Shown here: positions 36,387 through 40,369 of the stretch, piece by piece
Layout: each line of letters begins with the position of its first letter
Position numbering within the stretch: the stretch's first letter is position 1
Source of the DNA: Phyllobacterium bourgognense
Lineage (GTDB): Bacteria; Pseudomonadota; Alphaproteobacteria; Rhizobiales; Rhizobiaceae
Direction: 5' to 3'
Length of the DNA: 64,000 nucleotides
NCBI RefSeq assembly: GCF_003337575.1
Contig: NZ_QPJM01000003.1
Span: 62,001 to 126,000 of the forward strand
Program-made: the position numbers and the translations under genes
Notes under the pieces: generated by a model
What the model saw: only the letters and a program-made list of their open reading frames with translations
Database searches by the model: none
Told to the model about the DNA's origin: nothing

Positions 36387-36980
36387 ATGCGTCCGCTTTT
36401 GCTACTCCTCTTGATCGCTGGAATTGGGCTGGGGATTGGATATCCTTGGGTGGTCGGCAATTTCTCGGGAGAAGAAATCGGCTCGTGGCGCGTCTATGAT
36501 CGTCCCGGCCCCTACAAACCCGTCACCGTCACCTTGACTGCTGCCGACGCTCCGGTGCGCGCCTTCGTCGATATGCAGCCTTTGCGAAATTTCGTCCCCT
36601 CCATAGGGCGCTCGGCGCTGACAGCCGTCGTCACGCGGCAAGGCAAGGACGTTCTTGTCAGGACCTTGAACTACGAGAACAGCAAAGCGGCCAACAAGGG
36701 CTCACCGCAGGGCCCGCAGGTCTACCGCGACAGCATCGGCGATATCGATCCAGTCGAAGATGGCGACTATGTCTTCACCATCGGACCTGGCGATTTTGAC
36801 GGCCTGGAGGTGGCGGAGGTTGATCTTGTCTTGCGCAAGGGCGCGGCCGCTGTCGACTGGCGAGCGATGCCGGCTGGCATCGCGCTGATTGTGATCAGCC
36901 TTTTTGGGCTCGTTCGCCTGAGACGCAGTCGCAAGGCAGCAGCTAGCAATGTGCCACCTCCGCCCAAGTGGGGCAGATGA
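36387..36980 (+). CDS. Membrane-anchored protein of unknown function
   Basis: 197 residues with an N-terminal hydrophobic helix (2-24), a roughly 130-residue beta-rich periplasmic domain and a C-terminal helix (about 162-180) ending in RLRRSRK. No enzyme motif seen. ATG 36387 is preferred to TTG 36384. It follows holC by 10 bp and overlaps the GNAT gene (ATGA), so the three are probably cotranscribed. Confidence 0.65.
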   Translation: MRPLLLLLLIAGIGLGIGYPWVVGNFSGEEIGSWRVYDRPGPYKPVTVTLTAADAPVRAFVDMQPLRNFVPSIGRSALTAVVTRQGKDVLVRTLNYENSKAANKGSPQGPQVYRDSIGDIDPVEDGDYVFTIGPGDFDGLEVAEVDLVLRKGAAAVDWRAMPAGIALIVISLFGLVRLRRSRKAAASNVPPPPKWGR

Positions 36981-37528
36981 TGGTGGATCAGGCAGGGACC
37001 TTTCCAAAGATCCTTACCGAAAGACTTCGGCTGCGCCAATTCGAGCCAAAGGATGATGCCGGGCTCCACGCCTGTATTGGAGATGCAAATCTCGTGCGCT
37101 ACTGGGATTTTTCTGCCTGCAAGAATATTCAGGAAACGCGGAGCTGGGTGCGAATGCTCGCCAAGACCACGTCACCTGATGAATCCATCGCTTGGGCAGT
37201 TGCCGAAAAGGACAGCGATAATTGCATCGGCATGGTCAATTATCATCACCGTGAGCCGCTCAATCGCCGGTTGGAGATCGGCTACATTCTTCGATCGGAA
37301 TGGCACGGCCGCGGTCTTATGAGCGAAGCGGTCCAAGCCGTGATGTCCCATTGCCTCGGCAAGCTGAATACCCACCGCATCGCCGCGGTGATCCATCCGC
37401 ACAATGCGCCGTCCATCAGGCTGGTGACACGACTTGGTTTCACATGCGAGGGCGGTCCATTGCGCGACTACTGGCGGGTCGGCAACAATTATATGAGCCC
37501 CATGCTTTACAGCTTCATCGCCAACTGA
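36977..37528 (+). CDS. GNAT family N-acetyltransferase (RimJ/RimL-like)
   Basis: 183 residues. The opening ILTERLRLRQFEPKDD, the acetyl-CoA loop around GYILRSEWHGRGLMSEAV, and RIAAVIHPHNAPSIRLVTRLGF are those of the RimJ/RimL/ribosomal-protein-acetyltransferase group. The substrate could be an N-terminal amine, a small molecule or an antibiotic. ATG 36977 overlaps the preceding stop. Its last 22 bp overlap the convergent regulator gene. Confidence 0.88.
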   Translation: MMVDQAGTFPKILTERLRLRQFEPKDDAGLHACIGDANLVRYWDFSACKNIQETRSWVRMLAKTTSPDESIAWAVAEKDSDNCIGMVNYHHREPLNRRLEIGYILRSEWHGRGLMSEAVQAVMSHCLGKLNTHRIAAVIHPHNAPSIRLVTRLGFTCEGGPLRDYWRVGNNYMSPMLYSFIAN

Positions 37529-38172
37529 CGTCTCTCATCATGCTTTTCGACGATGCGGTAGGCGCAGCGCCGCGCACCTTTCAATATATGTTCGAAGCGT
37601 TTGACCTCGACATTCGGCCCAAGCGCCGCCTGAAACACCTCGAGCTCTGACCGGCACAATTTCTGGCAGGCCTTGGCTGCAACGCAGATAGGGCAGTGAT
37701 TCTCGATCAGGACAAGATCGCCGCCTGCGTCGCGGCTGACTTCGGCCATATAGCCCTCCGCCGAACGAATTTCTGCAAGGTGTTGGACTTTCCCTCCTAG
37801 CGACGTAATCGGTTCCAACGCCGTGCGGTACTGTTCAAGTGTCGTTCTCTCACGATGGGAAATCAATTGGTCGAGCCCGGCATCACCAAAGACCGCTGAC
37901 ACCGACGCCAGAAGGTCCGCTGTCAATCCGGCGTGGTTGTCGGGGAACTGGGCATTTCCGGCGTTCGTCAGATGCCAGAAGCGCTTGGGCCTGCCGACGC
38001 TCTCCCGGCTATCTTCGAAAGCCACAAGACCGTCTTCATACAGCCGTCCCAGCATCTGGCGGGCTGCTACAGCAGTAACGCCAAGCCTGTCACCAAGGGC
38101 CGAAGCTGTTTGCGCTCCGGCCACTTTCAGCGAATAAAGCATGCGATTTGTCGTGCGATCCTGCATGGACAT
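37507..38172 (-). CDS. SufR-like winged-helix regulator with putative Fe-S cluster ligands
   Basis: 221 residues from ATG 38172. An N-terminal winged helix (LKVAGAQTASALGDRLGVTAVAARQMLGRL and the wing VGRPKRFWHLT) is followed by a C-terminal domain with C160, C163, C169, C173 and C203. The C160-X12-C173 spacing and a third Cys about 30 residues on, in the context HCPI...LC..E...ILKGARRCAYRI, match the SufR type of [4Fe-4S] regulators that control Fe-S assembly genes. Here the neighbour is not a suf operon but a divergent MFS exporter, 87 bp away. Likely a redox-, oxygen- or iron-responsive repressor of that exporter. The start is uncertain; a frame extends to 38223. Confidence 0.8.
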   Translation of the reverse strand: MSMQDRTTNRMLYSLKVAGAQTASALGDRLGVTAVAARQMLGRLYEDGLVAFEDSRESVGRPKRFWHLTNAGNAQFPDNHAGLTADLLASVSAVFGDAGLDQLISHRERTTLEQYRTALEPITSLGGKVQHLAEIRSAEGYMAEVSRDAGGDLVLIENHCPICVAAKACQKLCRSELEVFQAALGPNVEVKRFEHILKGARRCAYRIVEKHDERRQLAMKL

Positions 38173-38259
38173 AAGATAGCAAGAAAAATTTAAAAAGCTA
38201 TTGCTTGTTTTATTAGGAGGCATATAAAAATATAAAACTTGTTAAATTGAGGAAATGCC
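38173..38259. promoter_or_regulatory. AT-rich divergent promoter region, SufR-like gene / MFS gene
   Basis: Strongly AT-rich compared with its neighbours. CTTGTTNNATT occurs twice in direct orientation (38204-38214 and 38238-38248), and ATAGC (38176-38180) faces GCTAT (38197-38201). GAGGA at 38249-38253 is the ribosome-binding site of the MFS gene. An AGGAGG at 38215-38220 on the plus strand is followed by no usable start codon. Confidence 0.4.
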
Positions 38260-39696
38260 ATGCACGAGACGACAGAAGAAACCGGCAGTACCAGCTGGTC
38301 GGAGCTCCTGAGCCCTTCATATTCGGCGGCGACCCTGACGCTATGCCTTGGCGTCGCGCTGTTCGCCTTCAATGGTTTCCTGGTTTCCACATCTCTCCCG
38401 ACGGCAGTGCGTGAAATCGGCGGACTTGAGCTGATTTCGTGGGCTTTCACCCTTTATCTCGTCCTTTCCATTGTCGGCGGCGCCAGTGGCGCATTGCTAA
38501 AGGCCCGAGTAGGCGCGAGGATGGCGCTGGTGGGCGCCGCGCTGGTATTTCTGGCGGGCACGCTCATCGCGGCCTTCGCCGGTTCGATGACCGAAGTCCT
38601 GATCGGGCGTGCGTTCCAAGGACTTGGCGAGGGTATTATTGCCGCGATTTGCTACGCACTCATTCCCGAACTTTTCCCGTCGCGGCTTGTCGCCAAGGTT
38701 TTCGGTGCCGAAGCCGTCGTTTGGGCCGTTGCCGCCTTTGGTGGGCCGTTGGTCTCGGGGCTGCTCACGGAACATCTGTCATGGCGCGCCGCGTTCCTCG
38801 TCAATGTGCCTTTGGCCTTTATATTCATCGCACTGGTTTTTTATATCGTGCCTAGGTTTTCCGGTGAGATCGCACGCCTGTCCGTGCCGTTCCTGCGGCT
38901 TTCGGCCATCGGTTTCGGTATCATGCTGGTCGCCTTTGCCAGCATCATGCAGACGGTTACGACGGAAGTGTTGTGCGTCCTGGGCGCCGCAGCGGTTCTG
39001 GCCTCGGTAGTGGTCGTCGACCGGCGCAGCCGCACACCGCTCTTTCCATCCGATGCCTTCGCTTTGAATTCCACTGTCGGCATTGGCCTATGGATTGTCC
39101 TGCTCATGCCGGTTGCGCAAGCCTCCACGTCCGTTTACCTGGTCATGACCCTGCAGAACCTCTGGGGTTACGGCCCGACAAAGGCAGGTGCCTGCAATGC
39201 CACGTTCGCCATTGCATGGAGTACCGTTGCCATCCTCGTTGCCAACATACAGGACCAGCGTCGCCGTGCATGGTTGATCCGGCTCGGACCGACGCTGCTC
39301 GTCGCAGGCCTCGCCACAATCGTCTTCGGCTTCTTCGTTGATAGGCCGCTGGTCGTAATGCTGGGTCAGATCGCCATTGGCACCGGCTTCGGCGTCAGCT
39401 GGGGTTTTCTCAGCCAGTCGGTCATGGAATCAGCGCGAAGCGGCGAACGTGATCGCGCCTCGGCCCTGTTGCCGACCCTGCAATCCGTTGGTTATGCGAT
39501 CGGCGCCGCTCTCGCTGGTCTCGTTGCCAATGCCGTGGGCTATCCTGAAGCCACGACACCGGTGGCCCTGCGCGACGCCACGATAATTGTCTTTGCCGCT
39601 TCGACCGTCATCGGCGTTGGTGCGTTCGTAGCCGGCTTCGTCTTGCCAACGCGCAAGAAAAATCTGCTGGCGATTGAGTTGCGGAAGCAGCTATAG
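38260..39696 (+). CDS. MFS transporter, drug-efflux type (DHA2/EmrB-like)
   Basis: 478 residues with about 13-14 hydrophobic helices. The N-terminal half carries the motif-A-like segment and RAFQGLGEGIIAAICYALIPE, recalling the motif C region of proton-driven drug exporters. Likely an inner membrane antiporter exporting a toxic compound; the substrate is unknown. The ATG at 38260 has GAGGA 6 bases upstream. Divergent from the SufR-like gene, so expression is probably under its control. A GNAT gene follows by 7 bp. Confidence 0.86.
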   Translation: MHETTEETGSTSWSELLSPSYSAATLTLCLGVALFAFNGFLVSTSLPTAVREIGGLELISWAFTLYLVLSIVGGASGALLKARVGARMALVGAALVFLAGTLIAAFAGSMTEVLIGRAFQGLGEGIIAAICYALIPELFPSRLVAKVFGAEAVVWAVAAFGGPLVSGLLTEHLSWRAAFLVNVPLAFIFIALVFYIVPRFSGEIARLSVPFLRLSAIGFGIMLVAFASIMQTVTTEVLCVLGAAAVLASVVVVDRRSRTPLFPSDAFALNSTVGIGLWIVLLMPVAQASTSVYLVMTLQNLWGYGPTKAGACNATFAIAWSTVAILVANIQDQRRRAWLIRLGPTLLVAGLATIVFGFFVDRPLVVMLGQIAIGTGFGVSWGFLSQSVMESARSGERDRASALLPTLQSVGYAIGAALAGLVANAVGYPEATTPVALRDATIIVFAASTVIGVGAFVAGFVLPTRKKNLLAIELRKQL

Positions 39697-39703
39697 AATC
39701 TGC

Positions 39704-40369
39704 ATGTCAGCAAATGAGAAAAATTTGAAAGCGGATCCTGCAATAGTCAGAATCTGGGTGGAAGGGTGGGCGCTAACCCGTCAGGTAGCGCCACCCATTT
39801 TCGAGAACGGGGGCTATCGTGTCGAAGTCGGCCTTCCGGACCAGTTGAGGCGCTATGTTTTCTCAGAATATTCCGATTGGGTCCGTCAGCATGCCGAGGC
39901 CATTTCCGAGCCCGCGATCTTTCTGAAGGTCTGTGCGCCGCCGGCGTTTGTCCAGCCGAATCTGCCGGCGCGTTGGCATATCCAATCTCCCGCATTCATG
40001 ATGTTGCTGTCCGGCCGCATGCAAGGCGAAACCACCTCTTTGCCGGATGGCTTTGTATATGACCATCAGGTGTATGACGGCGTAACCATCGTCAATGTCC
40101 TTGATAGGGGCGGGGAGGTCGCAGCCACGGGAAGGATCGGATTTCCTGGGGAATTGGCCGTTTATGACCGGATAAGTACCCATGAGAACCATCGTCGCAA
40201 GGGGCTCGGCCGGTCTGTCATGAAACGGCTGGAAATGCTTTCTCGAGAAAAAGGCATACAGCGCGCGGCACTCGTGGCAACGCCCGATGGCCGTGCACTC
40301 TATGAACCGCTCGGCTGGCAGTTACATTGCCTCTACACGACCGCTGTTATTCCAAAGCCCGGTGCTTGA
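39704..40369 (+). CDS. GNAT family N-acetyltransferase
   Basis: 221 residues; the N-terminal half is not recognised, and the GNAT core is in the C-terminal third (ENHRRKGLGRSVMKRLEMLSREKG, the acetyl-CoA-binding loop, then ALVATPDGRALYEPLGW). ATG 39704 is chosen; it begins 7 bp after the MFS stop, so the two are probably one transcript. With an efflux pump, acetylation of the same toxic compound is possible, but that is inference. Confidence 0.82.
   Translation: MSANEKNLKADPAIVRIWVEGWALTRQVAPPIFENGGYRVEVGLPDQLRRYVFSEYSDWVRQHAEAISEPAIFLKVCAPPAFVQPNLPARWHIQSPAFMMLLSGRMQGETTSLPDGFVYDHQVYDGVTIVNVLDRGGEVAATGRIGFPGELAVYDRISTHENHRRKGLGRSVMKRLEMLSREKGIQRAALVATPDGRALYEPLGWQLHCLYTTAVIPKPGA

Follow-up and report, generated by a model that had tools for sequence, protein, structure and literature searches.

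SoxR is a MerR-type [2Fe-2S] activator. As a one-component redox sensor it can regulate an exporter of the major facilitator superfamily (MFS), as reported for mfsA of Stenotrophomonas (PMC4411124). The cysteine spacings published for SufR differ, being given as C-X12-C-X13-C-X14-C (PMC8593673) and as C164/C171/C206 (PMC13421787), and for Rv1460 three cluster-ligand cysteine positions are described as needed (PMC6034842). ArnR of Corynebacterium, a [4Fe-4S] sensor of nitric oxide (NO) that targets nitrate reductase and hmp, consists of a winged helix-turn-helix (wHTH) and a C-terminal three-cysteine domain with the spacing C-X13-C-X29-C; an extra cysteine pair is not described in the available part of that report (PMC12343034). 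Here we describe a SufR-like regulator and the MFS exporter gene divergent from it, found in a 64-kb stretch of DNA of Phyllobacterium bourgognense, a soil bacterium associated with plants (contig NZ_QPJM01000003.1; the whole stretch is called the window). The regulator is SufR-like in its architecture and SoxR-like in its targets, and it departs from SufR in its model score, in its target and in the letters of its operator. From comparative sequence analysis we consider it reasonably probable that it is a redox-responsive, autoregulated repressor of the exporter, probably bearing a cluster, within a SufR-related proteobacterial family.

Coordinates are positions in the window, which comes from an assembly of 5.6 Mb in 61 contigs (96.5% complete). 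The features that carry the argument are as follows.

37507..38166, minus strand: SufR-like regulator, about 219 amino acids (winged helix, long helix and alpha/beta sensor domain)
37564..37704, minus strand: sensor signature E-N-H-C160-P-I-C163-x5-C169-x3-C173-x29-C203, conserved family-wide
38189..38212, no strand: predicted operator dyad TTTAAAAAGCTATTGCTTGTTTTA, of the form TWWnnMAAG-N6-CTTKnnWWA, 24 bp, over the putative -35
38201..38206, plus strand: TTGCTT, putative -35 of the MFS promoter, within the dyad (sequence reading and conservation)
38223..38228, plus strand: putative -10 TATAAA, 16 bp after TTGCTT (sequence reading and conservation)
38249..38254, plus strand: putative ribosome-binding site GAGGAA (sequence reading and conservation)
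38260..39696, plus strand: MFS exporter, DHA2/EmrB/EfpA-like, 478 amino acids, divergent from the regulator

In an alignment read by eye, 22 of 23 relatives share the start codon of the regulator at position 38166. The mechanically listed start at 38223 is therefore probably wrong, and the true spacer is probably 38167-38259. Cysteine numbers count from the codon at 38172, and 2 should be subtracted for the likely start. The best NCBIfam match of the regulator is the SufR model TIGR02702, with a score (103.6 bits) that is under the cut-off of 178.8; it is nevertheless the sole clear SufR-like protein of its genome, the next TIGR02702 match scoring 22.5 bits. The SoxR model TIGR01950 is not among the seven NCBIfam families listed for it at E 0.1. 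The fold of the DNA-binding domain is that of the MarR/ArsR-type proteins whose name the annotation pipeline uses, but the regulator is below the Pfam gathering cut-offs for both MarR_2 (23 bits, cut-off 27) and MarR (18.9 bits, cut-off 24.6), and it carries an additional cysteine sensor domain.

An earlier note on this DNA had described a C-X12-C pair followed by a third cysteine about 30 residues on. The arrangement is indeed C160-X12-C173-X29-C203; the note had missed two further conserved cysteines, C163 and C169. All 142 dereplicated members (<90% identity) have C160, C173 and C203; C163 is found in 139 of them and C169 in 140. The sampling favours sequences related to the window: the named loci used, 80 in number, are the best of at least 592 confirmed and were found partly through the motif ENHCPIC; the 72 dereplicated members found by whole-protein search, free of the motif, give 72, 69, 71, 72 and 72 for the five positions in order. 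SufR-type controls (cyanobacterial SufR and two actinobacterial relatives) carry the C160, C173 and C203 positions only, with the third cysteine 27-28 residues on as against 29 in the window regulator. In common with SufR the regulator has an N-terminal winged helix, a cysteine domain at its C-terminus that contains C-X12-C, and a predicted site in its own promoter; it differs in its two extra cysteines. A quick tree (LG+G4) of 99 members (<72% identity) and five outgroup rows separates the family from SufR-type proteins with a Shimodaira-Hasegawa-like approximate likelihood-ratio test (SH-aLRT) value of 98, and in one cyanobacterial metagenome-assembled genome a family member (127.9 bits) occurs together with a SufR that scores above the cut-off (322.5 bits). 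We note that two distant relatives of the same order (L207 and L208) have three cysteines and an AHNCVFH motif; they lie outside the five-cysteine family, have no suf match within 6.6 kb, and represent another uncharacterised branch. Among the open-licence literature searched, we recognised no paper describing the five-cysteine family, and some of its members carry only the annotation 'metalloregulator ArsR/SmtB family'.

The pairing of regulator and exporter is highly conserved. The regulator is present in 19 of 20 genomes of the genus, and each of these 19 loci has a divergently oriented MFS gene of at least 77% identity. The nearest named relatives for this locus are Phyllobacterium species, with 92% identity to P. 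trifolii. Within the order, matches to the regulator at E 1e-3 occur in 85 of 397 genomes and are strong by E-value in 77 of these. At 1e-10, a survey of 398 genomes across the phylum has 37 that match; 35 of these score at least 195 bits and two less than 75, and the family therefore looks discrete. A phage collection gave no match. The exporter itself matches PF07690 at E 4.6e-35 (121.6 bits, above the gathering cut-off of 33.4), TIGR00711 (DHA2/EmrB) at 104.2 bits, below the curated cut-off of 230.2, and an EfpA chain at E 4.7e-10.

The spacer between the two genes (38173-38259) is conserved within the genus and has a G+C content of 25%, compared with 56% for the window, so that the AT-rich shared promoter described in the earlier note is confirmed. 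The strict 24-bp pattern of the dyad has its sole match, both in the window and in the whole 5.6-Mb assembly, at 38189-38212, while a reversed-pattern control has none in the assembly. The MFS promoter carries it in 14 of the 19 genomes of the genus that were searched, including one (G064) with no regulator match, and the core AAG-N6-CTT is kept there in 22 of 24 sequences compared, the window included. The location of the dyad over the putative -35 is that expected of a repressor site. The same note had also pointed to a repeated CTTGTTNNATT. There are two copies, at 38204 and 38238, and no others on either strand of the window; the first is the right half of the conserved dyad, and the second, which lies between the -10-like TATAAA and the GAGGAA ribosome site, is missing in many of 23 relatives. 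We therefore reject a direct-repeat operator, the two copies being one palindrome half-site and one poorly conserved copy.

The dyad is found well beyond the genus. Upstream regions (n = 127, dereplicated by shared 8-mers and beginning at the approximate first residue) contain [AC]AAG-N6-CTT[GT] in 67 cases, compared with a mean of 2.15 and a maximum of 7 in 20 Markov shuffles. Spacings from 2 to 12 other than 6 are at background level, except for 10 (13 vs 1.6). The flanking T, A/T and A/T, which are outside the search pattern, occur at 93-100% across 107 dyad instances. By class of neighbouring gene, the dyad is present in 42/73 loci with MFS genes, 20/23 with superoxide dismutase (SOD), 7/14 with other redox or efflux genes and 10/32 with neither. 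As side observations, locus L206 (genome G069) has a strict match about 380 bp before a gene read from its sequence as an FTR1/EfeU-like iron permease, and genome G077 has a similar site; the permease gene was read in L206 only.

The letters of the half-site vary together with the amino acid at position 39, within the predicted recognition helix. The comparison covers 145 rows, comprising the 142 members and three SufR-type controls. Rows with Q39 have an AAG site in 80 cases, an AAC site in two (L116 and L161) and are without a site in 38, whereas K/R39 rows have an AAC site in 13 cases, an AAG site in none and no site in 10; two rows have other residues. The association has a Fisher p of 3e-14 with kinship ignored, and when the helix columns are left out of the tree, residue 39 changes at least five times among rows with sites. 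In eight of the ten site-less K/R39 rows (L103, L104, L112, L159, L123, L126, L139 and L143), the MFS gene immediately precedes the regulator in the same orientation, an operon arrangement, and a site is therefore expected before the MFS gene. An AT-flanked AAC-N6-GTT dyad is found there in five of the eight and an AAG dyad in none, compared with a mean of 0.01 and a maximum of 1 for the AAC dyad in 100 shuffles. SufR, like the family, has a dyad operator with half-sites 6 bp apart; its published site is CAAC-N6-GTTG (PMC8593673, PMC13421787), and a SufR control locus has two such sites between sufR and sufB. SufR has AAC with R at residue 39, consistent with the K/R-AAC rule, while most members of the family have AAG with Q39. 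The exceptions to the rule are the two Q rows with AAC and the cyanobacterial member L127, which does not fit cleanly, combining Q39 with an upstream CAAC-N6-GTTG dyad, some 20 bp away, that lacks AT flanks. These comparisons suggest that the half-site is switched between AAC and AAG through residue 39, with Q reading AAG and K/R reading AAC.

Genes adjacent to the regulator, meaning divergent from it or directly before or after it on the same strand, were detected by tblastn against chosen reference proteins, with all other gene kinds scored as neither. The 142 loci comprise 75 with an adjacent efflux gene and 37 with a redox enzyme (two of these with both), and 32 with neither. SOD is adjacent in 23 loci. 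The earlier note had placed an efflux pump, rather than Fe-S assembly, under this regulator by position, and the wider survey of such pairs supports it: no suf gene is adjacent in any of the 142 loci, although the same queries did detect suf in the SufR controls. Among 49 ten-kb loci no MFS or SOD match lies farther than 2.5 kb. In plasmids of Salipiger abyssi and Sulfitobacter faviae the divergent genes encode SOD, fdxA, flavin reductase and DoxX, with ferredoxin-NADP reductase also in the Salipiger set, and a group III truncated haemoglobin lies behind the regulator. Other annotated plasmid copies have SOD (Azospirillum), SOD, DoxX and RND genes (Ancylobacter), or TolC and RND genes (Comamonas), while three more plasmid records list no genes at the position concerned. 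Klebsiella and E. coli plasmids carry an MFS gene beside the family regulator; an identical MFS protein (WP_105667421.1) is found in Klebsiella pneumoniae (L148) and E. coli (L187), and the E. coli copy of the regulator seems shortened, adjoining an IS30-like ISApl1 transposase.

The strict pattern also occurs away from the regulator, in seven regulator-bearing genomes of one genus outside the class of the window, probably Vibrio as judged from gene content. The conserved sequence TTAATAAAGTAAAAACTTG[CA]TAAA is present in the sodB-grxD spacer in all seven (L235, L230, L234, L238, L240, L243 and L245), both genes having been read in five loci and sodB alone in two more. In six aligned spacers the dyad forms a near-perfectly conserved block within an otherwise poorly alignable sequence. 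The chance of a site within 400 bp of sodB is approximately 0.0002-0.0005 per genome, the seven genomes not being independent. The taxonomic family of these genomes has the regulator in 78 of 101 genomes and no match in 23 (E 1e-10). By sequence reading, the neighbours of the regulator itself are off-theme in six of the seven (glpX-like, murB-like and other genes); in the seventh, L246, the regulator is immediately followed, in the same orientation, by a MATE-exporter-like open reading frame. As a weak control, the dyad is missing upstream of sodB in the single E. coli strain inspected, and E. coli has no match to the SufR model at E 1e-5. The dyad is a candidate new input on sodB.

From these observations we infer the remainder of the system, namely dyad binding, a dimer, repression, a cluster, a signal and an exported compound. 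A regulator dimer would bind the dyad at 38189-38212, which covers the -35 predicted for the MFS promoter, and would repress both the exporter and its own gene. The C-terminal domain, with the three cluster cysteines of SufR and two that are specific to the family, probably holds an Fe-S cluster; were this cluster damaged by oxidants, by redox-cycling compounds or by NO, the regulator would come off the DNA and the pump would be induced. The local switch formed by regulator, predicted operator and MFS gene is very likely, and a role in redox or detoxification is likely. A wHTH protein that is probably a repressor differs from SoxR, however similar the targets, and resembles ArnR in its domain plan while differing in what it controls.

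Several results weigh against this interpretation. A sigma-70 consensus scan scored no promoter at the MFS spacer. Genus-wide, the strict pattern and its reversed control are similar in number, and it is therefore position, not number, that constitutes the evidence; in the probable vibrios, too, the strict pattern occurs two to six times per genome, not above the zero to five of the reversed control. About half of the members lack an AAG-form dyad at the regulator, and 32 loci have neither an efflux nor a redox neighbour in the chosen reference set. A Tistrella plasmid copy adjoins neither kind of gene, and in a plasmid of the cyanobacterium Trichormus variabilis (L145) an AraC regulator intervenes before the MFS and azoreductase genes. 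Well-supported branches provide only two independent pairs for residue 39, both agreeing in most pairings (p 0.5); a sign test on two pairs is unable to reach significance, the phylogeny-corrected test being underpowered. SoxR is found in 34 of 77 regulator genomes compared with 60 of 320 others (odds ratio 3.4, Fisher p 9e-6, with relatedness and genome size uncontrolled); the two co-occur rather than exclude each other, and the regulator is therefore not a simple stand-in for SoxR. We accordingly reject a SoxR replacement, and note that the window's own genome gave no SoxR match among the 9 of 28 first-look candidates scored. Finally, the sensor fold resembles ligand-binding V4R domains.

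This last point leads to the strongest alternative. The conserved cysteines of MopR hold zinc. The regulator could likewise be a metal-stabilised ligand-binding sensor of the V4R type, as in MopR, PoxR and DmpR, which sense phenols, with zinc cysteines and an aromatic or quinone signal exported by the pump, though we regard this as unlikely. The AlphaFold2 model of the regulator, from a 67-row alignment (predicted local distance difference test score, pLDDT, 86; predicted template-modelling score, pTM, 0.69), has a winged helix, a helix at 79-119 and an alpha/beta sensor, and its DNA-binding part resembles MarR-type structures. The sensor domain modelled alone (pLDDT 87, pTM 0.82) matches MopR 7vqf with Z 8.7 (root-mean-square deviation, rmsd, 4.5 over 123 aligned residues), PoxR 5frw with Z 8.4 (4.7 over 125) and DmpR 6iy8 with Z 8.2 (4.7 over 125), and flavin mononucleotide (FMN)/flavin reductases and zinc-type dehydrogenases adjoin some relatives. 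However, BcsD (Z 9.0, rmsd 4.6, 118 aligned), TRAPP subunits (Z 8.5, 5.0, 126) and the haem H-NOX domain of guanylate cyclase (Z 8.3, 3.8, 104) stand in the same list, tied with all MopR, PoxR and DmpR rows (Z 7.7-8.7, rmsd 4.4-4.8), and fold alone therefore cannot separate a cluster from zinc or a ligand. At the sequence level, hhalign of the regulator profile against four V4R domains gave no support (Probab 0.10, E 0.55); the regulator by itself had no match among solved structures, and with its profile the matches listed cover the DNA-binding half and at most little more. SufR and ArnR, with the same or nearly the same three cysteine positions, are reported to bind [4Fe-4S] (PMC8593673, PMC12343034), and for the ArnR sensor, too, TRAPPC3 is given as a possible template (PMC12343034). 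The neighbouring SOD, fdxA and truncated haemoglobin genes also fit redox or NO better than phenols.

Regulators of the OhrR and NemR type respond through disulfides or electrophile adducts, and five near-invariant cysteines, two beyond the three of SufR, could form a cofactor-free thiol switch of this kind, for which efflux and flavoreductase neighbours would be suitable under electrophile stress; the three SufR ligand positions are nevertheless invariant in 142 of 142 members, more than a switch built on one or two cysteines would need, and we consider this explanation improbable. Least of all can the regulator be a true SufR controlling Fe-S assembly with the MFS gene as an accidental neighbour, a very remote and largely refuted idea: TIGR02702 is its best NCBIfam match and the three ligand positions are shared, but the score is below the family cut-off, suf is adjacent in 0/142 loci while efflux and SOD genes are the neighbours, the split from SufR-type proteins has an SH-aLRT of 98, the half-site is AAG rather than AAC, the one strict site in the assembly is at the MFS promoter, and one genome holds SufR alongside a family member. 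SufR membership is rejected on these grounds, and a redox-responsive repressor of the exporter, probably with a cluster, is the reading we retain.

The order of genes in the window is pepA, holC, a small open reading frame, GNAT1, the regulator, the MFS gene, GNAT2 and an ABC-F-like open reading frame on the opposite strand, where the names pepA and ABC-F come from sequence reading, without a family call. The two acetyltransferases are the following.

36968..37528, plus strand: GNAT acetyltransferase 1 (PF13302, E 5.2e-31), convergent with the regulator
39704..40369, plus strand: GNAT acetyltransferase 2 (PF00583, E 1.1e-8), 7 bp past the MFS gene

The divergent regulator and MFS genes with GNAT genes on both sides are thus as the earlier note had them. 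Among 10 named relatives, GNAT2 is behind the MFS gene in three, on the other side in one and not found in six, while GNAT1 travels with a pepA-holC island in seven and is absent in three that have the pair located elsewhere. The acetyltransferases are not consistently beside the pair, and we reject them as parts of the module; co-transcription of GNAT2 with the MFS gene is possible in close relatives only. Of the note's overall interpretation, the relation to SufR, the efflux target by position and the redox-detoxification theme find support, and the acetyltransferases and the CTTGTTNNATT repeat fall away.

We incline, with some reserve, towards the wider view that the SufR-related proteins with five cysteines (ENHCPIC) are a widespread and hitherto unrecognised group of proteobacterial redox regulators with two added ligands and a residue-switched half-site, cluster-based sensors acting alongside SoxR that run exporters, SODs and flavin reductases, and sodB in trans in vibrios. 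If this is true, the SufR architecture would have been put to use throughout the Proteobacteria to regulate defence, with an operator of defined sequence and a specificity that follows from a single residue. It would provide a testable regulator of efflux and superoxide defence for the many genomes that name such proteins only 'metalloregulator ArsR/SmtB family', and would be relevant also to the copies beside MFS genes on clinical plasmids.

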